Shown: positions 953-16,954 of the stretch, piece after piece
Layout: every line of letters begins with the position of its first letter
Numbering within the stretch: the first letter of the stretch is position 1
IMG/VR virus record: IMGVR_UViG_3300043410_000492
Span: 1-20,137 of that record
DNA: 20,137 nucleotides
DNA from: a virus
Reading direction: 5' to 3' (one strand)
Position numbers and translations under genes: made by a program
The notes under the pieces: model-generated
What the model saw: the letters and a program-made list of their open reading frames with translations, nothing else
What the model was told of the DNA's origin: nothing
Database searches by the model: none

Positions 953-1441
953 TTAGTATTCTAAAATTGCGTAATCATAGCTTAAAGTTAATTCTATCGA
1001 TAATGGGTCATTTGATGCCCAATCTAATTCACCAAAGTTTGCTGAAGAAATGAATGCTCCTTTCAAAGTCCATTGTTCTACTTTATCACCTACCGGTCCT
1101 AATAGATAGAAAGTGATATCTTTTTTGTAGAAAGCTGCGTATCCATCTCTACCTGTCAATGACTCATGTGAACTTCTAATCCACTCCATAACTTGCTGTG
1201 CACCCGATGGTACGATTGGGTCATAAAGAGTGATAGTTACATCATCCCAAGTTGATTTACCTTTAATTTTTCTTTTTACGTTGATATGGTCTAATTCAAC
1301 TACTTCCGATGTGAAAGTTGGTCTATTAGCGGTTTTAATCATATATGATTCTATACCGTTGATTTCCATTATAAATCTATTACCTAACTTTGGTTCAAAG
1401 TTGGTATAGAACATTTTATCGAACTCTAATACTTCTGGCAT
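953..1441 (-). CDS. Tail tube protein (T4 gp19-like)
   Basis: This 162-residue protein matches the T4 gp19 tail tube family in length and character: a single small beta-rich domain whose hexameric rings stack into the inner tube through which DNA passes. Family-like segments are the N-terminal FEPKLGNRFIMEINGIESY, the central STWDDVTITLYDP, and the C-terminal half with FLLGP-like strands (FYLLGPVGD) and WTLKGAFISSANFGELDW. The C-terminus LSIELTLSYDYAILEY is typical of tube proteins. It directly follows the sheath gene, the usual sheath-tube order. The start ATG is preceded by an A-rich leader with only a weak GAGA. Assignment rests on recognised sequence character and on the sheath neighbour. 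Confidence 0.9.
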   Translation of the reverse strand: MPEVLEFDKMFYTNFEPKLGNRFIMEINGIESYMIKTANRPTFTSEVVELDHINVKRKIKGKSTWDDVTITLYDPIVPSGAQQVMEWIRSSHESLTGRDGYAAFYKKDITFYLLGPVGDKVEQWTLKGAFISSANFGELDWASNDPLSIELTLSYDYAILEY

Positions 1442-1490: not shown

Positions 1491-3725
1491 TTATCCGTTA
1501 AACGCTGCGCCAGTTGGTAAGATGTTGAAGTCGATTTGAATGAATTCAGCTGTCTTAGTCGGTTGTAAGTAGATAGCTCCTTTCATAATGTTTCTATCAA
1601 TTACATCTGGTGTGTTATTAGTTTCATCCATTACCACTCTGAAAGCGTAAAGACCTTGTCTTTGTTGGATTGATTCTAAGTAAGGGTTAACGATATTTAA
1701 GAATCTATTTCTAGTCTCCGATGTGTTTTGTTCGAACACTAAGTAACGAGAAGTAGAAGCGATATATTTTCTAACAGTCAATAATAATCTTCTTACATTG
1801 ATTCTATCCAATGCTGAAGGTTTGTCTTGTAATGTTTTTTGTCCAAATACTACAATACCTTGTCCTGGGAATTGTACAATTGGGTTTACTTTTGCTTCGT
1901 ATAATGTATCTTTTTCAGATTGAGTTAATCTATTTAATACACTAACTGCTCCAATTAAACCACCTCTATTTAAACCGGCTGGTGCGAACCATTCTGCTGC
2001 TACTCTATCGTTTGCTGCGAATACGCCAGGTAATAATACTGATGGTGGAACTGAAATCAATTTGTTTGTATTAACATCAATAGTCTTAATCCAAGGATAA
2101 TAAGTTGCTGTCATATTTGAATCTACTGCATCTGATTGAGTTGTTGCCTGTGAAATTGAATCGCCAGCTGCTGTTGTATCCATAATATAGAAACAATCAT
2201 TTCTTTCTTCAACCATGTCTAAAACATCGGTAGTAACTGCTGAGTGCAATCTTCTAATTACACCTGGAGTTACAATCATATTAACATCAAACTCATCTGC
2301 GTTAGATAATGCTGCAACATGCTTACCATATGCAACCGAACCACTTGCTGCTGAAGTAGATAAATCAAAACCTTGTGAGTTACCTGATGTTATATTAGAA
2401 CCTTTGTAGATTGGAGTTGCTGGATTCATACCATCAAATCCTTCTTGGAATGCTACAACGAATTGTGCTAAAGAAGAACCTACTGATAATGAACCACCAT
2501 TTACTGCATCTAAACCAAATACTGCGTTTTCACCTACACCTGCTCCTGTTGGGATTGGTTTTAAGTAAATTTTGTTATCAGTATTGTTATCTAAATCGAT
2601 ACCACCATATTGTGTTGCTGAACCTGTGATATAAGTTACTTCAGGAATCAAAGCTCCAACTGCTGCTGATGCTGATACAGGTAATGAATAAGCTGCGTGT
2701 CCAAATGGTACTGCTTGTACAGGTGCATTTTCATTTAAGTTTTTAATTCTAACATATTTTGAATTATTAACCCAATCACCAGTTTCAGTTATTTTACCTT
2801 CTGAATTAATTGATAATTTTCTATCACCAATTACTCTACTAATATAGTTAGGAGAATTAGGGTCTAAGTTTACATTTGACCAAGTTTCTAAAACTACTTT
2901 CTTTTTATTAGTATCAGCGAAATCTCTTACAACAATAGTGAAAGTACCATAATCAGTACCATTTACACTACCTGCTGCTTTAATATTTGTAATACCAATC
3001 TTAACTTTAGTATTTGCCGTATTTCCAGCGCCTAAAGTTTCGAATTGGAATAAGTTATATCTATCACCACTAATAGTTTGTGATTTAACATATGGAGTTA
3101 CTGCTTCCTGTGCATCAAAATTAAATAATTGGTTACCCAATACATTTACAGAAGATGAACAAGATGAGTTAAATGTGATAGATGAGTTTTTGAAGAATCC
3201 ATAAACATATGGAGATTTAGCACCATATGCGGATGTACCAAATACTGCTTCTATATCACTTGTATCAGCTGAATCTAAAGATGCTGATAAATCTAATCCT
3301 GTACCTCTTAAAACAAAATCACCACCACCTGTATTCGAACCACTTAATTGTGCATTTGCAAAACCTGCATTAGCCGCTGTTGATGTATTGAAAAGGATAC
3401 CCAATGATTGTGATACCGCTCCAGATGTTGCTGTCAATAATAAAGGAGCTGTTTCGGTGTATCCACCAACACCAGCAACTCTACAAATTGTTGCAGTTCC
3501 TGCTTCTCTTAAATAATTTTGTACTGCTAAAGGAGTATAATATGTGTCATCGATGCTACCAAACAATGTTTCAAATTCCGCTTGAGAATTAACGATTGTT
3601 GGAGTTAAAGGACCTTCTTTAAAAGGACCAATGAATGCTGCACCTATTTCAGATACACCTTGTTGTAAGAATGAAAGGTCGTTTTCTTTTGTAAATACGC
3701 CTGGTGATACTATTTTCTCTGCCAT
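1491..3725 (-). CDS. Contractile tail sheath protein (T4 gp18-like)
   Basis: A 744-residue tail sheath protein, somewhat longer than T4 gp18 (659). Its subunits form the outer helical sleeve around the tail tube that contracts at infection. The N-terminus is diagnostic: EKIVSPGVFTKENDLS followed by GAAFIGPFKEGPLTPTIV, the usual sheath start. The C-terminal domain, about residues 600-744, is also family-like: GQKTLQ, then DRINVRRLLLTVRKYI, FLNIVNPYLESIQQRQGLY, and a terminal strand region EFIQIDFNILPTG. The middle third (about residues 110-480) is Ser/Gly/Asn-rich and less recognisable, probably the surface-exposed insertion that varies between phages. It is followed by the tube gene after a 49-base gap and preceded by the Hint-lectin gene. 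The leader is A-rich with no Shine-Dalgarno. Confidence 0.93.
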   Translation of the reverse strand: MAEKIVSPGVFTKENDLSFLQQGVSEIGAAFIGPFKEGPLTPTIVNSQAEFETLFGSIDDTYYTPLAVQNYLREAGTATICRVAGVGGYTETAPLLLTATSGAVSQSLGILFNTSTAANAGFANAQLSGSNTGGGDFVLRGTGLDLSASLDSADTSDIEAVFGTSAYGAKSPYVYGFFKNSSITFNSSCSSSVNVLGNQLFNFDAQEAVTPYVKSQTISGDRYNLFQFETLGAGNTANTKVKIGITNIKAAGSVNGTDYGTFTIVVRDFADTNKKKVVLETWSNVNLDPNSPNYISRVIGDRKLSINSEGKITETGDWVNNSKYVRIKNLNENAPVQAVPFGHAAYSLPVSASAAVGALIPEVTYITGSATQYGGIDLDNNTDNKIYLKPIPTGAGVGENAVFGLDAVNGGSLSVGSSLAQFVVAFQEGFDGMNPATPIYKGSNITSGNSQGFDLSTSAASGSVAYGKHVAALSNADEFDVNMIVTPGVIRRLHSAVTTDVLDMVEERNDCFYIMDTTAAGDSISQATTQSDAVDSNMTATYYPWIKTIDVNTNKLISVPPSVLLPGVFAANDRVAAEWFAPAGLNRGGLIGAVSVLNRLTQSEKDTLYEAKVNPIVQFPGQGIVVFGQKTLQDKPSALDRINVRRLLLTVRKYIASTSRYLVFEQNTSETRNRFLNIVNPYLESIQQRQGLYAFRVVMDETNNTPDVIDRNIMKGAIYLQPTKTAEFIQIDFNILPTGAAFNG

Positions 3726-3795: not shown

Positions 3796-5532
3796 TTATT
3801 TATATGTTGGTGAAAAATAATCGTATATTTTTGTTATGTTTGTCGAATTCAATTGTGTATTGTAGAATAATACTGGTCCTAATTGTCCATTGAAATAGTA
3901 ATTATTATCACCATACCCACCACCAATTTGAATTAAAGCACCCGTTGTGTAATCTTTTGCACCATTTGATATAGTTCCTCTCGATGTTGTATCACTATAT
4001 GCAACGTTTGTACCATTTAATGCTGCGGTATAAGAAATCATATACCAAACGTTTGTAGATAAAGTAAATGTGTTACTATTAAATTGTACAGACGTTCCAT
4101 CATGTATAAAATATGTACCACTACCATTTGAATTTAAATACAATGCCATTTCTCTCGTTCCACCACTATTTTGCTTACCAAAAATTTGGTAATATCCAGT
4201 CGCAGGATGTGATGCGAATCTTACCCAAGCTACAACTGAATATGCTGAAGTATTGAATTGAGTATATCCACCACTTATATTAGATGAACCATCTTTATAC
4301 CAAAATTTATTAGTAGATAAAGACCAATACTTTTCTTTTCTACTTGCACCATTATTATATGTAGGATTTGCACCGGTAATACCAATACCATTTGGAGCGC
4401 CTGCAGGTCTAACACCCGTTCCCCATCCTGTTAAATCCAACCAATCAGTTCCATCAGTACCATCCGTAGATGATGCTTTTGATGGGTCTAAGTACATTCT
4501 TAATCCTGCAGCCGGTATAGCTGGTTGTGTGGTTGTGCCTTTGTTATGTGAAATAAATCCATTTGCTACATAAACGTCAGCTTGCTCTACGTTGATAGTT
4601 GCAATCTCAACATCTTCTGTTACAATTTCTATATTAGTTACTTCAACTTCTTGCGTTTCTTCTAAGAAATCATCCCACTTAACAATTAAATCACCAATAA
4701 GAATATCTTCTACATTTTTGAAATGATATTTTTCAATTTCAGAATCCCATACCCAAAGTGGGTGAGTTCCAGTTGCTTTTATTTCACCATTATTTAATGA
4801 AAAATATCCACTAGCAAAGTTATATACAACATCTGCTACAACAACAGTTTGTGCCGAGCCTGATTGTGCTTCTAATTGATAAAATCTCCAATCAACTTGG
4901 TCTGATTCTGGGTTTTGAGTTTCATCCGGTAATCCGTATGGCACCCATGCTTTGATTTCATCACCAACATTTAAATCTTCAACTGCCACCGATGTACCAT
5001 CAGCCTTTTCTACCATTGTACCAAATACCAAACAAAAATCTGGTTGGTTAATTGTATTGTAAACATCAACCGCATATAATGTTTTAGTAGATGTAGTATT
5101 ATAATTTGTTGCTGCGGTATTATATCCATCCGCATATTTCATAGATAATACAGAAGATGCTTCCGAATAATTTGAAGATGCGATTGATGCCGGTGTTATA
5201 GGAAATGATGGAGATGCGCCTAATGTGGGAGTACCTACTGAAAAGTTTGCATTATCAAATGAAACTGTATAGTTAGCAGATACACTACCAACTCTATCAC
5301 CATGCAGTGAACCGGCAGAACCAAATGAAAAAGTTGCTGTTTCTGATGTACTTTCTACGATGTATGTATATGTTGGTAAATTTACAGTAACTGAATCAAT
5401 TGCGAAAGAACCTAATGAAGCCTGTGTTCCAGCTGCTGCGTTCATAGCATTCATTGAAACTGCTTGAGTGGTTCTACTCGTACCTTGGGTTGCTCTATAT
5501 AAATTTCCTAATGATAAATTAGTTTTTGGCAT
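3796..5532 (-). CDS. Tail-associated protein: N-domain, intein-like Hint domain, C-terminal LamG/concanavalin-like lectin
   Basis: The 578-residue protein has three parts. Residues 1-166 are a Ser/Thr/Ala-rich beta-type region without a recognised family. Residues 167-330 look like a self-processing Hint (intein-like) domain: Cys167, the only cysteine in the protein, opens it; LNVGDEI lies at 187-193; TGTHP at 254-258 is the block-B TxxH motif; ILIGDLI lies at 277-283; VANGFISHN at 322-330 ends it. Lys331 follows the terminal His-Asn, so standard splicing onto Cys/Ser/Thr is not expected; cleavage at one or both ends is more likely, as in bacterial intein-like domains. Residues 340-578 resemble a LamG/concanavalin A-like fold, ending with a FNGQLGPVLFYNTQLN strand pair, and could bind host sugars. 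The gene lies between the glycosyltransferase and sheath genes. A receptor-binding role is inferred. Confidence 0.8.
   Translation of the reverse strand: MPKTNLSLGNLYRATQGTSRTTQAVSMNAMNAAAGTQASLGSFAIDSVTVNLPTYTYIVESTSETATFSFGSAGSLHGDRVGSVSANYTVSFDNANFSVGTPTLGASPSFPITPASIASSNYSEASSVLSMKYADGYNTAATNYNTTSTKTLYAVDVYNTINQPDFCLVFGTMVEKADGTSVAVEDLNVGDEIKAWVPYGLPDETQNPESDQVDWRFYQLEAQSGSAQTVVVADVVYNFASGYFSLNNGEIKATGTHPLWVWDSEIEKYHFKNVEDILIGDLIVKWDDFLEETQEVEVTNIEIVTEDVEIATINVEQADVYVANGFISHNKGTTTQPAIPAAGLRMYLDPSKASSTDGTDGTDWLDLTGWGTGVRPAGAPNGIGITGANPTYNNGASRKEKYWSLSTNKFWYKDGSSNISGGYTQFNTSAYSVVAWVRFASHPATGYYQIFGKQNSGGTREMALYLNSNGSGTYFIHDGTSVQFNSNTFTLSTNVWYMISYTAALNGTNVAYSDTTSRGTISNGAKDYTTGALIQIGGGYGDNNYYFNGQLGPVLFYNTQLNSTNITKIYDYFSPTYK
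4543..5034 (-). other. Hint (intein-like) self-processing domain, residues 167-330
   Basis: The boundaries are the codon for Cys167 (5032-5034), needed for the N-S acyl shift, and the codon for Asn330 (4543-4545), the residue that cyclises for C-terminal cleavage. His257 in TGTHP and His329 are the expected assisting residues. At 164 residues there is no room for a homing endonuclease. Confidence 0.75.
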
Positions 5533-5543
5533 CTTATTATATA

Positions 5544-6542
5544 TTATTCTCCGTTATAAATATCTAAAAGTTTTTCTTTCCACTCATCTTTATCTGAAAA
5601 GTGTTTTATCATCCAATCTTTCAATTTTTGAAACTCTTTTTTACGGGTTTCATAATCATCGTTACAAATCGTTTCGTAGGTCTGCTTAAATGTTTTCTCG
5701 TCAATCGCTTTGTATTTATAATCAAGTGGTACGTGCCATTTTTCGTGTAGTATCGGAAGCTTCCCCCAATCCACTGCTTCAAAAATTCCGTATCCAAATG
5801 GTTCAAATTCAAAGCAAGAATGAGATATTCCCCAATCAAGTCCGTAGAACCTTTCTTTATATTTGTAATCAAATTTGTAAATCTTTGATTTTTCGAATCG
5901 GTATCCATACTTTTTTCTATAATACTTATTGAATGTTTCTGAATTTGTAGAAATGTAACTTTCTAATCCATCAATATATTCAACATTTTTTCTACCTTCT
6001 GCTCTAGCTGCAAACCCAATTTTTGTAGAGGTAGATAATTCTTTATTTATTTTAAATTCATAATTATTTGGAATGTGATGTAAATTTTCCGTTTTATATG
6101 GAAAATGGTATAATCCTACCCAAACTTTATGTTTAATTTTATCAATTAATTCTGATTCAAATTCCCAATTACCATACCAATGTAGATATTCATCTTTATC
6201 CATTTGTGCCATTAAAGACACTTTTGTTAAATTATGGAATACAATTGAATTAATCTTTTCCAAATTTTGATGAATAGCTCTGGTTGGAGTATAATGACCA
6301 TGTAGTATGTGGATTCTTCTAGCGCCATCTAATATTTTTATTATCTCATCTTCCGATGTTTCCCAAATATGGTCAATATCAATTGGAAATTCTTCGTAAT
6401 TTTCGGGTTTATGTCTATGGAACAAAAGAAGCGGTTTTACTTCTAAATGAGGTGCCACTTCTTTTATCCATTCGGTTACCCATATATCAGCACCGCTGTT
6501 GAACCAAGGGCCTCCAGCGGTGGTGTAATAAACATCGTACAT
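5544..6542 (-). CDS. GT4-like (GT-B fold) glycosyltransferase
   Basis: This 332-residue protein looks like a retaining GT-B glycosyltransferase of the GT4 group, which moves a sugar from a nucleotide-sugar donor. The N-terminus shows a glycine-containing first strand-loop (TTAGGPWFNSGADIW, residues 7-21) and ILHGHYTPT (79-87). The C-terminal half has the GR.KN region (ARAEGRKNVEYIDGL, 179-193) and the EX7E signature E247-PFGYGIF-E255, which binds the donor sugar-nucleotide. It has no signal peptide or membrane segment and is rather short for the family. It begins 4 bases after the stop of the 1159-residue fibre and ends 11 bases before the Hint-lectin start, so it is almost certainly co-transcribed with tail genes. 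This suggests sugar addition to Ser/Thr-rich fibres; host surface glycans or phage DNA are alternatives. Confidence 0.75.
   Translation of the reverse strand: MYDVYYTTAGGPWFNSGADIWVTEWIKEVAPHLEVKPLLLFHRHKPENYEEFPIDIDHIWETSEDEIIKILDGARRIHILHGHYTPTRAIHQNLEKINSIVFHNLTKVSLMAQMDKDEYLHWYGNWEFESELIDKIKHKVWVGLYHFPYKTENLHHIPNNYEFKINKELSTSTKIGFAARAEGRKNVEYIDGLESYISTNSETFNKYYRKKYGYRFEKSKIYKFDYKYKERFYGLDWGISHSCFEFEPFGYGIFEAVDWGKLPILHEKWHVPLDYKYKAIDEKTFKQTYETICNDDYETRKKEFQKLKDWMIKHFSDKDEWKEKLLDIYNGE
5555..5564 (-). promoter_or_regulatory. GATATTTATA motif in the last codons of the glycosyltransferase gene
   Basis: The motif is made by the codons for Asp-Ile-Tyr, four residues before the stop, and lies 22 bases before the ATG of the Hint-lectin gene. 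Since it is coding it may be chance, but the position relative to the next gene matches the other copies. Confidence 0.2.
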
Positions 6543-6546
6543 TAAA

Positions 6547-9500
6547 TTATAACCCTTTTTGTTTCTTTAACTCTTGTATTTGTAAAGTTAAATTGTGTAT
6601 TTGTGTTTGTTGCTCTTTTATTGCTTCTACCATTAGACCCATCATTTTTGAATAGTCTAAACCTAAGTGACCATCTTCTCTTTCCATTACTACTTCAGGT
6701 AAAACTTCCTGAACTTCTTGTGCTATAAGACCTGTATTAGGGGTTGTTTTGGTTACTTTGTTTACATCTTCATTCCAAGTCCAAGTTACACCATTCAATT
6801 TATTTACTTTTTCCAAAGCGTTTGGAATAATTTGAATATTAGATTTGAATCTCTTATCAGAAGAATAGTATGCCGTAATATCACCCGTTGCTGTAATTGC
6901 TCCATTGATTGTTAAACCTGCGAAAGTTGGTGAAGATGAAGTTGCTACTGCTTGTCCGATTGCTACCGTTGGAGTTGCACCTTCACCACTATTATTTGTA
7001 ATAGTAACACCTGTACCAGCTACTAAGTTTGTTACATAATCGCCCGTTGTATCAGTTCCTAATGCTACTGAATTTGCAGCTATTGTAGTTGCAAATGATA
7101 CGTTTGCTAAATTTGTAATAGTTCCCGTACCAGTTACATCTCCTGTCAATGTGATTGAAATATCAGTACCTTCTAAATTAGTTAATCTAGTTAATGCCGA
7201 TGAACTGAAAGATTCTATGTTATTCAATCTTCCAATTGCACTTCCACTTGCAGTTGATAATTGGTCTAATCTACTTGTTTGCGTAGTATTTGTACTATCA
7301 TTTGATGAAGTATATGAGTTTAATGAACTCAATATACCAATTACTTGTGATGAACCACTAACTACTCCAACTGCGTTTAATCTGGTTAAAATTCCACTTG
7401 CATAGTTTGTAGTTGCTGTCAAATCAATTTGAGATGAACCACTAACAACAGTATTACTATTCAATTGAGTTTTTACATCAGTTGCGAAATTCGTAGTTGA
7501 ACCTGCGGTAATTTGTGATGAACCGGATACTACTGTGTTACTATTTAATTGAGTTTTTACATCAGTTGCGAAATTCGTAGTTGAACCTGCGGTAATTTGT
7601 GATGAACCACTAACTACTCCAACTGCGTTTAATCTAGTTAAAATTCCACTTGCATAGTTTGTAGTTGCTGTCAAATCAATTTGAGATGAACCGGATACTA
7701 TGCCATTTGTTGCGTTAATTGCACCATTAAATGAAGTACCTGTTATTGCCCCTGCTTTGAAATCTGCTAATGTAAATCCAGTTCCGTTTACATCTACTTG
7801 TGCAGATGTTTCATCGGTTAATCCATTAAATACTTTCCAACTATGTCCATCACTTGCATCCATAAAGATACCAGCGTGTCTATAAGTTCCATCATTGTAA
7901 TGTCCAACTATACCCAAATCATTATCAATTGATGCAGTTGGTGCTAAATAAAGAATGTTATCCTGAATTTGTACATTTGTAGATGTGATTACCGATTGCG
8001 TACCATACACTTTTAAATCACCCAAAATTGAAACAGTAGAACCTGTCATCTGAATACCCGCTTGTAAAGAAGCGGTATATGAATTTAAATTTGTTAATGA
8101 AATTCCCTGCGAATCATTTGTAGATTTTGCAGTTGATGCGGATGCTATCAAAGAACCACTAACAATTCCTATTTCGGTTAATCTAGTTTCTACTGAACCT
8201 GTATAAGTTGCTAATGTAGAATTTTTTGTTAATTCAGAACTACTAAATGAATTTAAATTAGAAACAGATACGTTTAAACTTGCAGTTGTAGTATTAATAT
8301 TTGTAATACTTACATCCTGCGAATCATTTGTAGTTTTTGCGGTTGATGCTGATGTGATTAATGAACCCGTAATAGTTGCTAATGCGGAATCATATGATGT
8401 AAATCCGGTTGTAGATTGTAATACAACTTGCGATGAGCCGGAAACTACACCATTATATGCAGCAATTGAACCTGTGATACCTTGCGATGCTACAACGGAG
8501 CCGGATAGTACATAAACATCTCCAAAAAAATGAGAATGGTATCGTGAACCAGAATCTATTCTGAATACACTGCCGCTTGTATCAGTACTATGTATTGAAA
8601 ATGAAGATGCATTATATGATATTAAGTGAAATCCTCTACCATTGGTGGAATTTACCAATTGAACTTCTGAATTACCATCCGATTTACCAACATATACCAC
8701 ACTAGCACTAACTGCATATTTAGAAGTAATTTTTCCGTTTACATCCAAATTACCACTAATAATTTGTTGGTCTCCGAATGTATTTGATTGGTTTGTTTTT
8801 GCAAAACTTCCACTAATTGATTCAAATGTATCTAATCTTTGTTCGTGATTAGATGCAGTTGAAATTAAACTTCCACTTACAACACCAATTTCAGTTAATT
8901 TTGTATTTACACTCGAAGTATGTGAATTGATATTACTTACAGAGGTATTTAAACTTGCAGTTGCAGTGTTTATATTAGTAATACTTGCATCTTGTGCAAC
9001 ATTGGTTGCATATGCGTTTGATGCCGATGCTATCAAACTACCACTTACATTTGCAATTTCAGTAAATTTAGTATTAACTGAACCCGTATAAGTTGCTAAT
9101 GTAGAATTTTTAGATTCTTGTGAAGATGTAAATGTATTTAAAGAAGAAATTGAAAGATTTACACTAGCTGAAGTAGATTCTAAATTATTTAATCTACCAA
9201 CACTTGCTGTATAAAATGAAGCGAATGCGTTATCATTTGTAGTATCTACTGAATTTATCAATGCTACTATTTCTGCAAATGAATCTTTATCAGCATCCGA
9301 TGCAGATAAAATTGCATCTACTCTACCTTTTTCCGTTAATACTCTACTATCAATTGATGAACTATATGTAGTAAATCCACTTACATTTGATAAAGTTACT
9401 TGCGATGAACCACTAATTACACCATCGGTATCCAATTTACTCTTTATCGTTGTATTGATTGAAGAAGTAAATGCGTTTATATTTGTAATTGATGTAGTTT

Positions 9501-10026
9501 GTGTATCATTAGTTGTTTTAGCTGCCGAAGCGGATGCTATCAAACTACCAGTTACATTTGCAATTTCAATAAATTTATCATCCGTTGATGATGTACTTTG
9601 TAAAATTGTTGTTAATGTATTTGAAGATAATGTGTTTACAACCGAACCACCATCTATAAATTTAATTGAACCTGTTGAAATATATAAATCTCTCCAAATT
9701 CTAGTAGATGAACCTAAATCAAATGCGTTTGTAGCGGATGGTATAAGAGATGAACTCAAACTAGCCACAACGTTAACAACATCCGAAGTTTGGTCACCAA
9801 TTGAAATATTACCACCTAATGTTAAATTACCATCAATTTTTGCATCACCTGTAATATTCAACGATGAACCGGAAATACCTTGAGATGATGAATTTATCAA
9901 TAATGTAACATCGCCGGTTTCTAATCCCAATTGCAATGTTCCTAATGTAGTATTTACATATGGTTCTCCGAATGCTAACGAACCTGATTTTTGTGCGGTT
10001 GTCCCACGTCTAAATTTAAGTGCCAT
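6547..10026 (-). CDS. Long tail fibre with C-terminal endosialidase-type S74 chaperone
   Basis: The 1159-residue protein starts with an attachment-like N-terminus (LKFRRGTTAQKSG...FGE). A long Ser/Thr/Asn-rich shaft follows, made of repeating phrases such as SGSSQ (7 copies), SGSLI.SAS and LN..TAS. A beta module with GDLKVYGTQSV and DNILYL begins near residue 669. A 28-residue repeat array spans about residues 779-894. Then come TGVTITNNSG...VAIGQ and GDITAYY. The C-terminal 105 residues are an S74 intramolecular chaperone: SSDKRFKSNI places the catalytic pair as Ser1056 and Lys1061, the same five-residue spacing as in phage endosialidases, and the tail is a coiled coil (LTLQIQELKK). The chaperone should trimerise the fibre and then cut itself off before Ser1056. 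The leader carries AGAAGG, a modest ribosome site. Confidence 0.88.
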   Translation of the reverse strand: MALKFRRGTTAQKSGSLAFGEPYVNTTLGTLQLGLETGDVTLLINSSSQGISGSSLNITGDAKIDGNLTLGGNISIGDQTSDVVNVVASLSSSLIPSATNAFDLGSSTRIWRDLYISTGSIKFIDGGSVVNTLSSNTLTTILQSTSSTDDKFIEIANVTGSLIASASAAKTTNDTQTTSITNINAFTSSINTTIKSKLDTDGVISGSSQVTLSNVSGFTTYSSSIDSRVLTEKGRVDAILSASDADKDSFAEIVALINSVDTTNDNAFASFYTASVGRLNNLESTSASVNLSISSLNTFTSSQESKNSTLATYTGSVNTKFTEIANVSGSLIASASNAYATNVAQDASITNINTATASLNTSVSNINSHTSSVNTKLTEIGVVSGSLISTASNHEQRLDTFESISGSFAKTNQSNTFGDQQIISGNLDVNGKITSKYAVSASVVYVGKSDGNSEVQLVNSTNGRGFHLISYNASSFSIHSTDTSGSVFRIDSGSRYHSHFFGDVYVLSGSVVASQGITGSIAAYNGVVSGSSQVVLQSTTGFTSYDSALATITGSLITSASTAKTTNDSQDVSITNINTTTASLNVSVSNLNSFSSSELTKNSTLATYTGSVETRLTEIGIVSGSLIASASTAKSTNDSQGISLTNLNSYTASLQAGIQMTGSTVSILGDLKVYGTQSVITSTNVQIQDNILYLAPTASIDNDLGIVGHYNDGTYRHAGIFMDASDGHSWKVFNGLTDETSAQVDVNGTGFTLADFKAGAITGTSFNGAINATNGIVSGSSQIDLTATTNYASGILTRLNAVGVVSGSSQITAGSTTNFATDVKTQLNSNTVVSGSSQITAGSTTNFATDVKTQLNSNTVVSGSSQIDLTATTNYASGILTRLNAVGVVSGSSQVIGILSSLNSYTSSNDSTNTTQTSRLDQLSTASGSAIGRLNNIESFSSSALTRLTNLEGTDISITLTGDVTGTGTITNLANVSFATTIAANSVALGTDTTGDYVTNLVAGTGVTITNNSGEGATPTVAIGQAVATSSSPTFAGLTINGAITATGDITAYYSSDKRFKSNIQIIPNALEKVNKLNGVTWTWNEDVNKVTKTTPNTGLIAQEVQEVLPEVVMEREDGHLGLDYSKMMGLMVEAIKEQQTQIHNLTLQIQELKKQKGL
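7345..7692 (-). repeat. 84-bp in-frame tandem repeats, arrangement A-B-B-A
   Basis: Four consecutive 84-bp units (from 7369, 7453, 7537 and 7621) encode 28-residue repeats. The two middle units are almost identical (ITAGSTTNFATDVKTQLNSN type). The two outer units are almost identical to each other (IDLTATTNYASGILTRLNAV type) at exactly 252 bp spacing; the clearest difference between the outer copies is a single g/a. Each unit ends in the shared VSGSSQ phrase. Confidence 0.85.
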
Positions 10027-10067: not shown

Positions 10068-10077
10068 TATAAGTATC
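10068..10077 (-). promoter_or_regulatory. GATACTTATA motif after the 974-residue fibre gene
   Basis: A one-base variant of the junction motif, touching the TAG stop of the upstream fibre and 41 bases before the next ATG. The rest of the 50-base gap shows no hairpin terminator. Confidence 0.25.
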
Positions 10078-13001
10078 TATTTTGATTCCAATTCTTTAAC
10101 TTTTGCAGATAATTCTTTAATAGCTTCAATTAATACCGGAACTAATTTAATATAATCAACTGCTAAGTATCCCGTTTCTCTTTGAGTTACGATTTCAGGC
10201 ATTATTGATTGAACTTCTTGTGCAATTACCCCCAAATCATTTCCTTTATGAGAATGTATATTTTCAAATCCTTCTTTCCAATCATAAGTGTTACCACTAA
10301 TTGCTTCAACTTTTGATAAAGCGTTTTGAATAGGTTGGATATTTTCTTTTAATCTTTCATCCGATGAATAGTATGCAGTAATATCACCCGTTGCTCTAAT
10401 CTCACCACTTACACCACTTGCGGTAGTCCCTACTCCGATTGAACCGAATTGAACGTTTGCTGATGTACCAACTGCTTGTCCAATTGCTATCGTTGGTGTT
10501 GCATTTTCTCCACTATTATTTGTAATAGTAACACCCGTACCTTGTACTAACGATGCTACATAATCGCCTGTTGTTTGAGTTGCTAATGTGATATTTCCAG
10601 CAGCATTTCCCAAAGTAATTTGAGATGAACCTGAAACAACACCAACTGCGTTTAATCTTGCTAAAATACCACTTGCATAGTTTGTTGTAGCAGTTAAATC
10701 AACTTGCGAACTACCACTTACTACACCGGTTGGTAATAATGAAGTTATTTGTGTAGATGAAGATATTACGTTTGTACCTTCTAATATTTTTGCAGCTGTT
10801 ATCGAACCACCCAATGCTACCGAAGTACCGGCTATTGTCATTGATTTGTTTGTAATAGCCGTACCATCTATTTGAGATGAACCACTAACTACACCCGTTG
10901 GTAATAATGGGATTATTTGAGATGAACCACTAACAATACCTCTACCTTTTGATTCATATCCAGCAGCAACTTCAGCTTCAGTAGCGTAAGTAGCATCTAA
11001 TGATGCGGTAAATGAATTTAATGAACTTAATATACCAATTACTTGTGATGAACCACTAACTACTCCTGTTGGCATTTGTGCCGAACCACTCCATAATCCA
11101 CTTCCTCCTAATATTTGAGAACTACCACTTACTACACCAGTCGGTAATAATGGTGTTATTTGTGCAGAACTTGATACGATACCACTACCCTTTGCCTCAT
11201 ATCCAGCTGCAACTTCTGCATCAGTTGCAAATGTATTTGTTAAAGAAGAACTCCATGCATTTATAGATGCCGATGTTAATTCTAAATTTGATAATCGTGT
11301 ATTAGCAGATGATGTGAATATTTCTAAATTTGCTAATTCAATTTTTGCCGAAGCTGACCATAAGTGCAATTGAGTTAATGGGTTACCACCACTAATTCCA
11401 CCAATTCCTTCTAAATATGTAATTCTTTCTTCATGGTCTTTAACCGATGCAGTCATCAATGATGCACTTACATACGATTGAGATGCTGAAATTATTAAAC
11501 TACCACTTACTACGCCTATTTGTGTGAATTTAGTATCAACCCCTCCACTCCATGCATTTGCAGATGCAGTATATGATAATATAGATGAAGTTACTTGCTG
11601 TAATGTTGCAAATTTAGTATCAACTCCACCACTCCATGTATTTGCAGATGCAGTATATGAATTTATCGATGCCGAATGTTGTTCTAATGATGCACTTGCT
11701 ACATTTAAAGAAGCAGTTGTTTGGTATATTGATGTTAATGATGATAATACACTTGCACTAAACGTATTTAACGAAGATGTACTTACATTAATATTCGAAA
11801 CTGATGTATTTAAACTGGCAGTTGTTAAATTTAAATTGTTTATTGAAATATTTACACTTGCCGAATTTGTTTGTAAATTGTTTAATCTACCACTTGCAGA
11901 TGATGTGAATGAATTTAATTCACTTAATTGTGCGGATGATGTAATTACATTATCTCCACCTGCTAAAAGTAATTTAGATTCAGCATCTTTAACTCCACCC
12001 TTCCAATAATCATTTGTAGCATCCCATAATAATGAACCGGATGTTGTTGAACCACCCGTTGCATCTTTTGTATATATACCAGCGGTAGTTGATGAACCAC
12101 CAAAATTTAATTCAATTATATTATCACCAATATTAACCTGTGTAGAGTTAATTTGGGTAGTTGTTCCATTTACAGTTAAGTTACCATTTACAGTCACATC
12201 AGTTCCACTTACACCAATCGCTGTTTTAAGAGAAGATGTATATGATTCAATACTTCCAATTCTTTGTTCGTGATTAGAAGCAGTTAATATTAATGAACCA
12301 CTAATAGTAGCTAATGCTGAATTTTTTGATATTTGAGAACCTGTGAATGAATTTAAATTTGTTATCGAAATATCTTGCGAATCATTTGTTATCTTAGCAG
12401 CTGATGCTGATAGAATCAATGAACCACTTATAGTAGATAATGCCAAATCATATGCAGTAAATCCAGATGTACTTTGTAAAGTTATTTGAGATGAGCCGGA
12501 TACTAATGTGTGAGTAGCGCTTGCTTTATCTTCAAATACAGAACTTAATTGAGATGAACCTGAAATTAGGGTATGAGTAGCACTTGCTTTTTCTTCAAAT
12601 ACAGAACTCAATTGAGATGAACCCGATATAACTCCGTTAGTTGCAGCTATTGCACCCGATATATTCGTTGCGTAAACATTTCTCCAATATGCCGAAGTTG
12701 TACCTATATCAATAGTACCATTTGGTACTAAGTTTGTTGTAAATTGTCCTAATGCCGAAATGCTATCCGCATTTGCGTTACCTAAGTAAATATTACCACC
12801 AATTCTTACATCGCCCGATGCACTAATATTACCAATTAAATTAATATCACCAGAAACAGGTACGTTTAATGGTAATAGTGTAATAGGATTATTAGAACCA
12901 CTACCAAATTGAATAGAACCACTTCCTTTGTGTAAATATAATTCACCATCAGCAATAGTGATATTCGATGTACCCCTTCTTAGTTGAAATATAGCTGCCA
13001 T
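10077..13001 (-). CDS. Long tail fibre with C-terminal endosialidase-type S74 chaperone
   Basis: The 974-residue fibre begins with an attachment-like N-terminus (IFQLRRGTSNITIADGELY). Next come two 21-residue repeats (about residues 122-163), and a beta module at about 262-350 (GNLTVNGTTTQINSTQ, GDNIIELN, then DATNDYWKGG) that recurs in the 614-residue fibre. Then follows a shaft with nine SGSSQ phrases and two 28-residue WSGGVDTKF repeats. From about residue 790 it parallels the 1159-residue fibre (TGVTITNNSGENATPTIAIG). The last 96 residues are an S74 chaperone with SSDERLKENI, giving Ser880 and Lys885 as the catalytic pair, and a terminal coiled coil (EAIKELSAKVKELESK). Self-cleavage before Ser880 is expected after trimerisation. 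The leader is A-rich without a Shine-Dalgarno. Confidence 0.88.
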   Translation of the reverse strand: MAAIFQLRRGTSNITIADGELYLHKGSGSIQFGSGSNNPITLLPLNVPVSGDINLIGNISASGDVRIGGNIYLGNANADSISALGQFTTNLVPNGTIDIGTTSAYWRNVYATNISGAIAATNGVISGSSQLSSVFEEKASATHTLISGSSQLSSVFEDKASATHTLVSGSSQITLQSTSGFTAYDLALSTISGSLILSASAAKITNDSQDISITNLNSFTGSQISKNSALATISGSLILTASNHEQRIGSIESYTSSLKTAIGVSGTDVTVNGNLTVNGTTTQINSTQVNIGDNIIELNFGGSSTTAGIYTKDATGGSTTSGSLLWDATNDYWKGGVKDAESKLLLAGGDNVITSSAQLSELNSFTSSASGRLNNLQTNSASVNISINNLNLTTASLNTSVSNINVSTSSLNTFSASVLSSLTSIYQTTASLNVASASLEQHSASINSYTASANTWSGGVDTKFATLQQVTSSILSYTASANAWSGGVDTKFTQIGVVSGSLIISASQSYVSASLMTASVKDHEERITYLEGIGGISGGNPLTQLHLWSASAKIELANLEIFTSSANTRLSNLELTSASINAWSSSLTNTFATDAEVAAGYEAKGSGIVSSSAQITPLLPTGVVSGSSQILGGSGLWSGSAQMPTGVVSGSSQVIGILSSLNSFTASLDATYATEAEVAAGYESKGRGIVSGSSQIIPLLPTGVVSGSSQIDGTAITNKSMTIAGTSVALGGSITAAKILEGTNVISSSTQITSLLPTGVVSGSSQVDLTATTNYASGILARLNAVGVVSGSSQITLGNAAGNITLATQTTGDYVASLVQGTGVTITNNSGENATPTIAIGQAVGTSANVQFGSIGVGTTASGVSGEIRATGDITAYYSSDERLKENIQPIQNALSKVEAISGNTYDWKEGFENIHSHKGNDLGVIAQEVQSIMPEIVTQRETGYLAVDYIKLVPVLIEAIKELSAKVKELESK
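11529..11671 (-). repeat. 84-bp in-frame direct repeat (two copies)
   Basis: Copies start at 11529 and 11613 and share about 58 bases with few differences. They encode 28-residue units with WSGGVDTKF and SYTASAN. The period equals that of the array at 7345-7692, although the sequence is different. Confidence 0.75.
12512..12637 (-). repeat. 63-bp in-frame tandem repeat (two copies)
   Basis: Units start at 12512 and 12575 and encode 21-residue repeats with SGSSQLSSVFE and KASATHTL. A few mostly silent differences separate the copies, so the duplication is older than the array at 7345-7692 or is selected at the protein level. Confidence 0.75.
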
Positions 13002-13019
13002 TTATTTTTATTTCTTTTT

Positions 13020-13029
13020 TATAAATATC
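13020..13029 (-). promoter_or_regulatory. GATATTTATA motif before the 974-residue fibre gene
   Basis: An exact copy of the junction motif. It starts one base after the stop of the 172-residue gene and ends 18 bases before the next ATG. The gap is only 29 bases, so little else fits in it. Confidence 0.3.
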
Positions 13030-13030
13030 G

Positions 13031-13549
13031 TTATTCGTTAAAATCTAAATCTATATATCCATTTACCGCTAATTGTGTAAAAATATCTGCTATTGAACGA
13101 TTTGGCATGCTATTTCCATCAACAGTTGTTAATACTGCCGATGATAAATCAAAATCGGTAGATGGTAAATTTGTTAAACCACTACCATCTCCAACAAACG
13201 TTGCAGCTGTTACACTTCCACTTATCAATGCATTAGAACCACTTATACTTCCTAATATATCAATACTACCATTTGATATAATATCTCTAGTCACATAAAG
13301 GTCTCTAGAAATATTTGCGTCTTGATTTACTACTAATTCACCAAATGAACCGGATTGTGTAAGAGTAATTGAACCGGTGGTTATAGAATTTGTTGTTACA
13401 ATTGTTTCAATAGATTCGACACTTCCTGAACGTTTTAAAAATACTTTACCATCGTAAGTATTAACTGCAACCTCACCTAAGTTAAGAGAACCCGTATCTG
13501 GTACTTTGCCGGGCAAAGCGGAACGCTTCAGTATAATTGATTGTGACAT
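13031..13549 (-). CDS. Short tail fibre or fibre adaptor protein
   Basis: A 172-residue protein whose N-terminus (SIILKRSALPGKVPDTGS, then LNLGEVAVNTYDGKVFLK) is a common start for phage fibre and baseplate-attachment proteins and resembles the N-termini of its fibre neighbours. The middle repeats short beta-strand phrases (GSFGELVVNQDANISRDLYV, GSIDILGSISGS), leading to FVGDGSGLTNLP, a frequent phrase in phage fibres. The C-terminus (VNGYIDLDFNE) has no chaperone or lectin domain. It could be a short fibre, or the base piece onto which the two long fibres dock. It is the first gene after the terminator at 13580-13608, so it opens the second transcription group. The leader has no Shine-Dalgarno. 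Confidence 0.8.
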   Translation of the reverse strand: MSQSIILKRSALPGKVPDTGSLNLGEVAVNTYDGKVFLKRSGSVESIETIVTTNSITTGSITLTQSGSFGELVVNQDANISRDLYVTRDIISNGSIDILGSISGSNALISGSVTAATFVGDGSGLTNLPSTDFDLSSAVLTTVDGNSMPNRSIADIFTQLAVNGYIDLDFNE

Positions 13550-13579
13550 ATTTAGTCTATTCTATTAAAGTTATATAAC

Positions 13580-13608
13580 AAAAAAGGCAGTATATATATA
13601 CTACCTTT
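13580..13608 (-). terminator. Intrinsic terminator after the 614-residue fibre gene
   Basis: Bases 13583-13595 pair with 13596-13608 in an almost gapless palindrome (AAAGG.AGTATA core). The one imperfect position (13588/13603) forms a G-U pair in minus-strand RNA but a C-A mismatch in plus-strand RNA, so the structure fits minus-strand transcription. Six T (13580-13585) follow on that strand. Confidence 0.75.
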
Positions 13609-13617
13609 ATAAATATA
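13608..13617 (-). promoter_or_regulatory. TATATTTATA motif just before the fibre terminator
   Basis: On the coding strand the motif runs straight into the 13580-13608 hairpin. A promoter here would fire into a terminator, so this copy fits poorly with a promoter role and fits better with an RNA-end or processing role. Confidence 0.2.
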
Positions 13618-13634
13618 AATTATTTTATAATTCG

Positions 13635-15479
13635 TTAGAATGTTCCCCCATCAATTACATTACTCATAACAAAAGAACTACCATCCCATTGAGCGATATC
13701 TCCTGCTGTTGTTGGAGCTGTGATAAAATCCAAATTACCATTAGTTGCTCTAAATGCTAATCTTTTTGAAGAACCAAATCCTGGAACGTTTACAGAACCC
13801 GTAACATTTGATACGATTGCAATTGAAGAACTGAAATAGTTATCAGTACCATTGTATTTAAAGTATGCCGATGTACCAGCTATTTCAATTCCAGCACCAT
13901 CCGCAGTTGCGTTTGAAGTAGAACCACTTGCTAATGTAATTAATTTATCTTCAACTACTAATTGTGCAGTATTTAATGTTACAGTGTTACCTTGTACTAC
14001 TAAATCACCACCAACTACTACATCACCCGTTGTTGTTACTTTCGCAAATGTTACTTGATTGCCTTGCCCAACTCCTTGGATTGTTCCCGTACCTTCTAAA
14101 GTAGTTATTCTACTATTAGCTGATGCAGTAAATGTATTAATATTCGAAACCGAAGTATTTAAACTTGCAGTTGTTGAGTTTATATTTGTAATAGAAATGT
14201 TTACACTTGCAGATGTTGTTTCTAAATTAGATAATCTGCCATCTTGTGTATCATTTGTAGATTTTGCAGTTGATGCAGATGCTATCAATGAACCACTAAC
14301 TACACCTATTTCAGTAAATTTAGAATTTGCAGATGCAGTAAATGCGTTTAATGCATTTGTAGATGTATTAGATGATGTGTATGAATTTAATGCGGCAACT
14401 GATATATTTACACTAGCCGATGTAGATTCCAAATTATCCAATCTACCACCCTGTGAATCGTTTGTCGATTTTGCAGCTGATGCTGAACTGATTAACGAAC
14501 CTGTGATAGTTGCTAATGCGGAATCGTATGCTGTAAATCCGGTTGTAGATTGTAAAGTAATTTGAGATGAGCCACTAACTACCGAATCACTACCTGCTAA
14601 AAGAACTTTACTTTCAGAACCTTTAACTCCGGCTTTCCAATAATCATTTGTAGTATCCCAAATCATTGAACCAGTTGCCGTATTTGGTGCAGTTGGGTCT
14701 TTAACCCATAACCCACCATTTGTAGCACCCGTACCATTTAATTCGATGATGTTATCACCCAATTGAATAGTTGTAGAATCTATAACAGTCTGCGTTCCAG
14801 CAACAGTCAAATTACCAGCGATAGTTACATTTGAACCTGTTATATTAAATGCGGTATCAAATGATGAACTGAAATCGGTAAATCTATTTAATATAGTAGA
14901 TGCCGATGATATTAAACTACCACTTACAACACCAACTTCTGTCAATTTTGTGTTTACAGAAGCGCTGAATGAATTTATATTAGAAACACTTATATCAACT
15001 GATGCTGATTTTGATTCTAATTGACCTAATCTTTGTAAAGCACTTCCACTAAAAGTATTTAATAATGTTACCGAATTACCGATATCACCACCACCACCTA
15101 AAGATGCTTCAACGGCATCTAATCTACTATCAACAGATGTAGAGAATGGTTGGATGTTACCAACTAAGTTGATTGCATCGTTACCATCACTTCCTAACAA
15201 ATATAATGTAGAACTACCACTTGCATAGTAAGGAACGCCTTTAACCATCCCATTATAAACGGATGCCGTAAATACTGATGGTGCAGAATCTCCAATTAAA
15301 AATCTATTAACTGCTTGTACTTGTCCATCGGTTGGTACTGTAAATACTAATGATGTTCCGTTCGTAGTTGTTAAATTGGAAGAACCCGATGCTATGATAA
15401 TTTCACCCTTTTGTAATGATGAAGTTACAGCTGATAGTGCTTCCAAACTACCACGTCTATGCTTGATTATTTGTGCCAT
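13635..15479 (-). CDS. Tail fibre protein without chaperone domain
   Basis: The 614-residue protein has an attachment-like N-terminus (MAQIIKHRRGSLEAL...LQKGEIIIASG). A beta module at about residues 220-295 (GNLTVAGTQTVIDSTTIQLG, DNIIELNG, WDTTNDYWKAGVKGSESK) closely matches one in the 974-residue fibre. A shaft of LN..TAS and SGSLI.SAS phrases follows (about 295-475). A second related module lies from about residue 490 (GDLVVQGNTVTLNTAQLVVE, DKLITLASGS, ADGAGIEIAG). It ends in a short beta tip (AQWDGSSFVMSNVIDGGTF). Unlike the two long fibres it has no S74 domain, so it must trimerise unaided or with another chaperone. It is the last gene before a terminator. The leader offers only AAGAG about 11 bases before the ATG. 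Confidence 0.85.
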   Translation of the reverse strand: MAQIIKHRRGSLEALSAVTSSLQKGEIIIASGSSNLTTTNGTSLVFTVPTDGQVQAVNRFLIGDSAPSVFTASVYNGMVKGVPYYASGSSTLYLLGSDGNDAINLVGNIQPFSTSVDSRLDAVEASLGGGGDIGNSVTLLNTFSGSALQRLGQLESKSASVDISVSNINSFSASVNTKLTEVGVVSGSLISSASTILNRFTDFSSSFDTAFNITGSNVTIAGNLTVAGTQTVIDSTTIQLGDNIIELNGTGATNGGLWVKDPTAPNTATGSMIWDTTNDYWKAGVKGSESKVLLAGSDSVVSGSSQITLQSTTGFTAYDSALATITGSLISSASAAKSTNDSQGGRLDNLESTSASVNISVAALNSYTSSNTSTNALNAFTASANSKFTEIGVVSGSLIASASTAKSTNDTQDGRLSNLETTSASVNISITNINSTTASLNTSVSNINTFTASANSRITTLEGTGTIQGVGQGNQVTFAKVTTTGDVVVGGDLVVQGNTVTLNTAQLVVEDKLITLASGSTSNATADGAGIEIAGTSAYFKYNGTDNYFSSSIAIVSNVTGSVNVPGFGSSKRLAFRATNGNLDFITAPTTAGDIAQWDGSSFVMSNVIDGGTF

Positions 15480-15515
15480 GTTATATTATTCTCTTATTGA
15501 TTATTGTATTCAATC

Positions 15516-15525
15516 TATAAATATC
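15516..15525 (-). promoter_or_regulatory. GATATTTATA motif before the 614-residue fibre gene
   Basis: An exact copy of the junction motif in the 82-base gap between the 91-residue gene and the 614-residue fibre gene, 36 bases before the fibre ATG. No hairpin is seen in this gap. Confidence 0.3.
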
Positions 15526-15561
15526 ATTTTTTTAAGTAACAATATTAAAAATTAAAATATA

Positions 15562-15837
15562 TTACCATTCACCCATATCCACATTCAAATTAGATTGCGA
15601 AACAGTCAATTCTGCATCAGTTGCGTATGTATCATTTAATGAAGCAGTAAATGTGTTCAATGAATTTAATATATCAATTACTTGCGATGAGCCGCTAACT
15701 GTACCATCGGGTAAAACTGCTTGCACTTCTGCTGTTATAATACTAATAACAGATTGTGAAAAATCCTGTCCAACTGCACCAGCTGCTTCTAAATATGATG
15801 AACTTTCTATTTGTTTTAATCTAATTAAATTTGCCAT
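15562..15837 (-). CDS. Mini-fibre protein, possibly a remnant or adaptor
   Basis: This 91-residue protein has its own N-terminus (MANLIRLKQIESSSYLEAAG), then a segment (about residues 46-79: TVSGSSQVIDILNSLNTF, then TYATDAEL) that matches a phrase in the shaft of the 974-residue fibre (VVSGSSQVIGILSSLNSF, then TYATEAEV). It ends soon after in VSQSNLNVDMGEW. It has no receptor-binding tip, chaperone or full beta module. It may be a deletion product of a full fibre, a donor segment for recombination, or a small adaptor. The frame is intact, the codon use matches its neighbours, and the start follows the previous stop closely, so I treat it as a real gene. Confidence 0.7.
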   Translation of the reverse strand: MANLIRLKQIESSSYLEAAGAVGQDFSQSVISIITAEVQAVLPDGTVSGSSQVIDILNSLNTFTASLNDTYATDAELTVSQSNLNVDMGEW

Positions 15838-15840
15838 ATT

Positions 15841-15850
15841 AATAAATATC
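15841..15850 (-). promoter_or_regulatory. GATATTTATT motif between the Gly-rich adhesin and mini-fibre genes
   Basis: It fills nearly the whole 13-base gap: the stop of the adhesin lies on one side and the mini-fibre ATG three bases away on the other. That close spacing cannot serve a leadered promoter for this ATG, so a role in RNA processing or translation, or chance, must be considered. Confidence 0.2.
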
Positions 15851-16951
15851 TTATAATTTAGTTATTTGTATATATCCACTACCACTATTGAAAGAATTCA
15901 AATTTGTAATCGAACTTCCGCTAAATGTAGATAATCCATCATAGTTTCCGTTTGATGTAGATATTGTATTTGCTAAACTAATAATGTATGATGAACCACC
16001 ACCGGCTCCATCGGATGCAGGCTGTGAATTTCCCCATGTACCAGCTCCTCCGGCATATCCACCACCACCGCCGCCGGCAATTGGGCCACCTCCACCACCG
16101 CCACCAAAACCACCTGCAGTTGCACTATTCGGTGTATATGTTGTAGATGCACCACCACCTACCGCACCACTAACAAATGCCATACCACCGCCACCTGTTT
16201 GAGCCGCAGGAGTTGGTGCGGTTGCTGCGATTGTATTATTTCCTGGAAATCCATTTCCTAAAAATCCACCTCCACCACCTCCATCATATACGTTTGTAGA
16301 TGTAACGGATGCAGTATTGATATGTGAACGTCCACCTAAACTTCCAGTTCCACCAGGTGCATTATTTTTTGATAAAGAACCCGTTGTTGCAGTAGAACCA
16401 TTTCCACTTAATGAACCACTTTTTAATATACCGGCCATTCCCATACTATCACCACTATATGCACCATATCCACCTGCACCACCTGCTACTAAATATGGAG
16501 TGTTTGAACCTGAAAGAACAAAGAATGAACCTCCGCCTCCCCCCAATCCAATGTAAGCTAAACCAGATAAACCAGTATTTAAACTTTTTTGTCCAACCAC
16601 CATTACAAATTTTTGTCCTTGCGTTAGTGGAACTCTTGCTTTTACAATTGCACCTTTTGAACCTGATACTGCTGCAGGATATGTTGTATTACCTGTTGCT
16701 GCACCTGCAATTTCAATTTCATATGTTGCAGTTTGTGGAACTGTCCAAATTTGATAACCTTGATATGAACCGGTTGTAAAAAATGTTGGATTTGAAAAAT
16801 AACTTCCAGATGAAGAACCGGTATATGCTGCCAACAATGTAGTTCCCAATGGACCTGTTGAACCACTTATCCCTGCCGTTGTAAATCTAAAAGATGTAAA
16901 CGGATACAAATAGTTACTTACTGTTATTCCATTTGTGAAAGTTATGGCCAT
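15851..16951 (-). CDS. Glycine-rich adhesin (possible receptor-binding tip)
   Basis: The 366-residue protein has an N-terminal part ending in a beta-sandwich-like stretch (IWTVPQTATYEIEIAG, residues about 68-83, then ARVPLTQGQKFVMVVGQ). A long glycine-rich domain (about 135-325) contains many G4-G7 tracts, including GGFGGGGGGGPIAGGGGGG and GAGGGSSYI. It closes with GYIQITKL. The layout resembles glycine-rich domains of phage adhesins (as in T-even gp38) and of ALK/LTK-type glycine-rich proteins, where glycine helices pack into a rigid core and the loops between them bind the receptor. It starts 3 bases after the C1q-fibre stop, so it may act with that fibre, as gp38 does with a long tail fibre. 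No signal peptide is seen. Family placement is by pattern only. Confidence 0.7.
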   Translation of the reverse strand: MAITFTNGITVSNYLYPFTSFRFTTAGISGSTGPLGTTLLAAYTGSSSGSYFSNPTFFTTGSYQGYQIWTVPQTATYEIEIAGAATGNTTYPAAVSGSKGAIVKARVPLTQGQKFVMVVGQKSLNTGLSGLAYIGLGGGGGSFFVLSGSNTPYLVAGGAGGYGAYSGDSMGMAGILKSGSLSGNGSTATTGSLSKNNAPGGTGSLGGRSHINTASVTSTNVYDGGGGGGFLGNGFPGNNTIAATAPTPAAQTGGGGMAFVSGAVGGGASTTYTPNSATAGGFGGGGGGGPIAGGGGGGYAGGAGTWGNSQPASDGAGGGSSYIISLANTISTSNGNYDGLSTFSGSSITNLNSFNSGSGYIQITKL

Positions 16952-16954
16952 ATC

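Follow-up and report, generated by a model that had tools for sequence, protein, structure and literature searches.

Hint domains follow an established chemistry, an N-S acyl shift at the cysteine in position 1 and cyclization of the terminal asparagine, and covalent transfer by such domains is known from Hedgehog (to cholesterol) and from the BIL2 domain of Tetrahymena (to lysine). Bacterial intein-like (BIL) domains lack the nucleophile at position +1 and mainly cleave (PMC7664689), and the known A-type BIL domains sit in variable bacterial proteins (PMC7765530). The biochemical hallmark of the A-type BILs is autocleavage, accompanied by minor ligation. In the polymorphic toxins, a PT-HINT domain is located ahead of a swappable C-terminal module (PMC3482391).

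The window analyzed here, a viral stretch of 20,137 nt from IMG/VR, carries a 578-aa protein with a Hint domain between a base part and a lectin head. Like the A-type BILs, e.g., the C. thermocellum BIL domain (2lwy), which is its best profile match, the window Hint has the Hint fold, Cys1, TxxH, a terminal His-Asn pair, no endonuclease, and a +1 residue other than Cys, Ser, or Thr; unlike them, it belongs to a phage tail-gene block and its +1 lysine is fixed. BIL2 of Tetrahymena BUBL1 (6y75, 6tmm) similarly has no +1 nucleophile, with Met following in the BIL2 construct, but it is eukaryotic, flanked by ubiquitin-like domains, and zinc-controlled. The swappable C-terminal module recalls PT-HINT, although the module here, encoded within a phage tail-gene block, is a lectin and not a toxin. 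The Hints of jumbo phages share with the window Hint a related sequence, the location in a phage structural or tail protein, an insert that contains W, and a block F Asp, whereas they are C-terminal, with no lectin behind them and with T, V, A, or K at +1.

Table 1. Coordinates of the Hint protein, its parts, and the adjacent genes in the window.
Feature	Position	Strand	Basis or remark
Complete ORF (578 aa) with base part, Hint domain, and lectin head	3796..5532	-	103 distinct full-length relatives
N-part, residues 1-166	5035..5532	-	Prediction: N-terminal helices and an Ig-like beta sandwich, weakly matched in fold
Hint domain, Cys167-Asn330, 164 aa	4543..5034	-	AF2 model, Foldseek, VIA-align, profile search
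Cys167, first residue of block A and predicted nucleophile of the N-S acyl shift	5032..5034	-	On intein residue 1 in alignment; 104/104
T254-x-T256-H257, block B TxxH	4762..4773	-	T254, T256, and H257 each 104/104
H329-N330, block G, predicted Asn cyclization	4543..4548	-	104/104
Lys331, +1 residue, not C/S/T	4540..4542	-	104/104
C-junction flank KGTTTQPxIP, residues 331-340	4513..4542	-	Low dN/dS; high-ranking conserved window
C-part, residues 331-578, variable head	3799..4542	-	Laminin_G_3 (ConA-like) lectin domain, residues 419-566
332-aa gene, upstream neighbor	5544..6542	-	No Pfam match; glycosyltransferase-like by eye only
Tail sheath, downstream neighbor	1491..3725	-	Pfam and PHROGs searches
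Tail tube (gp19-like)	953..1441	-	Pfam and PHROGs searches

The region from Cys167 to Asn330 delineated by the first-pass annotation corresponds exactly to 5034..4543, and the TxxH motif (T254-G-T256-H257 in the window protein), H329-N330, and Lys331 (codon AAA) were all read back from the ORF. The annotation had also called the C-part lectin-like, rightly so, as a Pfam search with the window protein detected Laminin_G_3 at E 1.9e-12. Its statement that Cys167 is the only cysteine is true of the window protein but not in general, the relatives carrying 1-3 Cys. The AF2 model of the N-part has a pLDDT of 82 and a weak top fold match, the lambda tail tube protein V (Z 7.1), to which no evidential weight was given; Pfam and PHROGs searches gave no family match for this part.

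Searches with the single sequence did not identify the domain: the whole 578-aa protein scored 14.2 bits against Pfam Intein_splicing (cut-off 35.8), PHROGs gave no match, phmmer against the PDB returned only a spurious lysozyme, and tblastn of the whole protein against phages gave no match. Since single-sequence Pfam scores fall below the cut-off, a profile or structure search is needed. The AF2 model of the Hint domain, built from an input alignment of 20 relatives, has moderate confidence (mean pLDDT 78). Its best Foldseek match in the PDB is the BIL2 domain of Tetrahymena BUBL1 (E 1.7e-9), followed by the C. thermocellum BIL domain (4e-8) and then by inteins and Hedgehog. VIA-align yielded Z 17-18 against BIL, intein, and Hedgehog structures, and in many chains model residue 13 (Cys167) fell on intein residue 1 and model residue 176 (Asn330) on the terminal Asn. 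A profile pooling the window-type Hint with Hints of other phage structural proteins matched BIL 2lwy first (E 8e-16) and BIL2 6tmm second (6e-13), then one intein-annotated protein (2e-9) and classical inteins (from 5e-8). The Hint domain claimed from the letters of the DNA is thus borne out by the model, by both structure searches, and by domain ends in register, and segment 4543-5034 (-) encodes a real Hint domain. A chance motif was ruled out by the fold matches and by residue invariance. Block F is occupied by Asp319 in the window protein, while many inteins have histidine there, and no endonuclease domain family was matched within the 164-aa domain.

Scans of IMG/VR provided the 103 distinct full-length relatives, all from metagenomic contigs; two scans of genome contigs yielded no relative. 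Seven residues (Cys167, T254, T256, H257, H329, N330, and K331) are unchanged in all 104 distinct proteins. Synonymous codons vary for H257 (92 CAC, 12 CAT), H329 (63 CAT, 41 CAC), N330 (64 AAC, 40 AAT), and K331 (101 AAA, 3 AAG), as well as for T254 and T256, whereas Cys167 is encoded by TGT in every protein and is the only one of these residues without such variation. Because the named residues are invariant while synonymous codons vary at all of them but Cys167, the Hint domain is argued to be active. The median dN/dS is 0.25 for the Hint domain (dS near 0.96), 0.23 for the N-part, 0.36 for the lectin, and 0.09 for residues 331-340. A catalytically silent Hint fold that only keeps base and head rigidly apart, for which the constant encoding of the protein in one ORF may be cited, would not need catalytic residues that stay invariant at this synonymous divergence, and we regard it as highly unlikely. 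In one group of relatives, two extra residues stand right behind the lysine (HNKIGGTNAQP), which itself is retained.

Not a single ORF with N-part and lectin but without Hint was found, versus 330 ORFs carrying all three; the other ORFs were ended by contig borders or came from other Hint proteins, and one contig was frame-broken. The latter (L111/L262, IMGVR_UViG_3300031951_008394) has a single copy with the frame broken within the Hint domain, by a sequencing error or as a split gene. In 12 large contigs, N-part and lectin are each single copy and lie in the same ORF.

Pairwise distances of nine segments of the protein form three blocks (1-166, 167-330, and 411-578), with correlations of 0.37-0.81 inside the blocks and nearly none across them. 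By these distances, the base, Hint, and lectin modules are exchanged among phages, with the borders at the Hint ends. Identity in the lectin part is as low as 42% in relatives whose N-part and Hint hold 80 and 77%, respectively. The lectin alleles form at least six groups. Some of the IMG/VR scans used the N-junction patterns DVYNTINQ or YAVDVYN, which inflates the apparent conservation of the N-junction; the junctions were therefore retested in two subsets (46 and 26 proteins) recruited with other patterns. In both subsets, the 12-residue stretch at the N-junction (152-163) ranks first for conservation and that at the C-junction (329-340) ranks fourth, and the catalytic residues together with Lys331 are invariant (46/46 and 26/26).

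The 332-aa gene is found upstream of the Hint protein in 251/251 testable loci and the tail sheath downstream in 261/261, the loci being redundant. The tail context proposed earlier is confirmed by this position in a tail-gene block beside the sheath and tube genes, and from the same context we infer that the 578-aa protein belongs to the virion. S74-type fiber genes are located upstream of the Hint gene in the window. Region 10077-19270 encodes several long tail-fiber-like proteins with many repeated SGSSQ / STSSLN-type segments, of which one ends in an S74 chaperone domain and one has a C1q-like tip (E 0.0021); a second S74 protein is encoded at 6547-10026.

With respect to classification, the fold, in which the residues of blocks A, B, and G align in register, is that of the Hint superfamily. 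The C-terminal His-Asn pair is followed by Lys, and never by C, S, or T, in 104/104 proteins, and the pooled profile is closer to BIL than to inteins, which agrees with the earlier assignment to bacterial intein-like domains without a +1 nucleophile. The variability typical of BIL-bearing proteins is seen in the lectin and in the shuffling of modules, yet gene and position are fixed. A class 1 intein would have C, S, or T at +1; moreover, no version of the host protein without Hint occurs among the ORFs examined, and the homing endonuclease, an optional trait of inteins, is absent. Thus, a classical intein was ruled out by Lys at +1 and the absence of empty alleles. The broader reading of a classical (mini-)intein, intact or as a remnant in decay, which shares the Hint fold and the block A, B, and G residues, deserves almost no credence given these same observations, and a remnant would also sit poorly with the low dN/dS of the Hint domain and its intact catalytic residues. 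The Hog domain of Hedgehog does not fit either, as a Laminin_G_3 lectin and not a sterol-recognition region lies behind the Hint. Since the residues are invariant, no Hint-less relative was found, and the tail-gene neighborhood is constant, the domain is neither a mobile intein nor a product of chance. It is best filed, on its sequence and model, as a fixed A-type-BIL-like Hint under strong purifying selection.

Related Hints are located at the C-terminus of structural proteins in the jumbo phages Alexandravirus SNUABM_32 and AD1, SNUABM_5, Erwinia phage Y3, Yersinia phage fHe-Yen9-02, NCTB, and the uncultured 484-kb phage LR756508. Some are already annotated (Y3 gp110, 'contains intein domain'; NCTB, 'large intein domain protein'; Alexandravirus gp111/gp108). 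Only 2-9 residues follow Asn in these Hints, and +1 is T, V, A, or K (e.g., Lys in LR756508, Ala in NCTB, and Val in fHe-Yen9-02); they too have no fixed nucleophile at this position. In the unannotated phage LR756508.1, a structural-looking protein (127498-129886; L349:3499-5887) has a C-terminal Hint ending in HNKH, and a homolog of the 332-aa gene (37% identity) lies directly behind it. As the same two kinds of gene are neighbors in the window, the pair of Hint and 332-aa gene recurs in a distant phage, in the opposite order. Three large related contigs contain a second gene, for a protein of ~750 aa with two clear tandem Hint domains preceded by a third Hint-like stretch in which the Cys and the TxxH motif are lost (L225:115-2379, record of L072, 245 kb; L221:679-2976, record of L023; and L220, record of L050). 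In L225, this protein terminates precisely at ...LVHNK-stop, and immediately downstream, in one contig, there is a 2OG-Fe(II)-oxygenase-like gene (L219:2124-2627). A literature search that covered few subscription papers turned up no study of phage structural Hints.

By analogy with the A-type BIL domains, the Hint domain probably self-processes, with cleavage as the typical outcome. Cys167, aided by T254-x-x-H257, would turn the Phe166-Cys167 bond into a thioester, and Asn330, aided by His329, would cyclize and cut the Asn330-Lys331 bond; because +1 is Lys, the transesterification of normal inteins would be impossible. Cleavage at both ends would typically give pieces of about 166, 164, and 248 aa, and a fraction of the molecules might be ligated again through the amine released on Lys331 or become attached to some other amine. 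The occurrence of these reactions, like their order and what then becomes of base and lectin, is inferred.

Splicing without a +1 side chain is a different outcome, in which the alpha- or epsilon-amine of Lys331 would attack the Cys167 thioester after Asn330 cyclization, so that the base would be joined to the lectin as ...NQPDF-KGTTTQP... (NQPDFKGTTTQP) and the Hint discarded. One BIL domain has been reported to ligate with no nucleophilic side chain involved (Aranko 2013, as cited in PMC7664689), and the strong conservation of both junction flanks, the invariance of Lys331, and the constant presence of base, Hint, and lectin in one ORF would suit it. BIL domains, however, yield chiefly cleaved products, and flank conservation equally fits cleavage or a linker role, and we consider ligation unlikely. 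The invariance of Lys331 is suggestive because jumbo-phage homologs carry T, V, or A there, but the lysine could instead serve folding or binding.

In these homologs, C-cleavage would free nothing, since so few residues stand behind Asn, and N-terminal chemistry may be what counts. Their architecture suggests such chemistry as the purpose and would agree with covalent transfer, i.e., the thioester-activated N-part being handed to a lysine amine or to some other nucleophile that a protein of the virion or cell provides, much as BIL2, the top Foldseek match, forms isopeptide bonds to Lys (PMC8616854). We hold this to be quite unlikely for the window protein, as its sequence does not separate transfer from hydrolysis and there is no known acceptor. 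Cleavage of the A-type BIL kind is the preferred reading.

Hint domains annotated in phage structural proteins (NCTB, Alexandravirus, and Y3) are already known; new here are the setting of a Hint in a phage tail-gene block, with a base on one side and a variable lectin on the other, and the obligatory lysine at +1. To our knowledge, few natural functions have been assigned to BIL domains, and the natural role of these domains becomes testable on one small protein, in which the domain, with its invariant +1 lysine, is fixed in a phage clade exactly where the base meets a fast-changing lectin. It is an unlikely proposal that a Hint with an obligatory +1 lysine couples a phage tail protein covalently, by ligation or an isopeptide bond, attaching the swappable lectin head or the base part chemically and not just through assembly; if true, phage structural Hints would be a widespread device for virion cross-linking or head exchange. 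All relatives keep the cutting residues; the tail adhesin of this lake-type phage is therefore probably cut or re-joined by the phage itself, after synthesis. If the adhesin is cut or coupled, this would be a self-processing of receptor-binding heads, unlike the chaperone cleavage of tailspikes or the action of the prohead protease.
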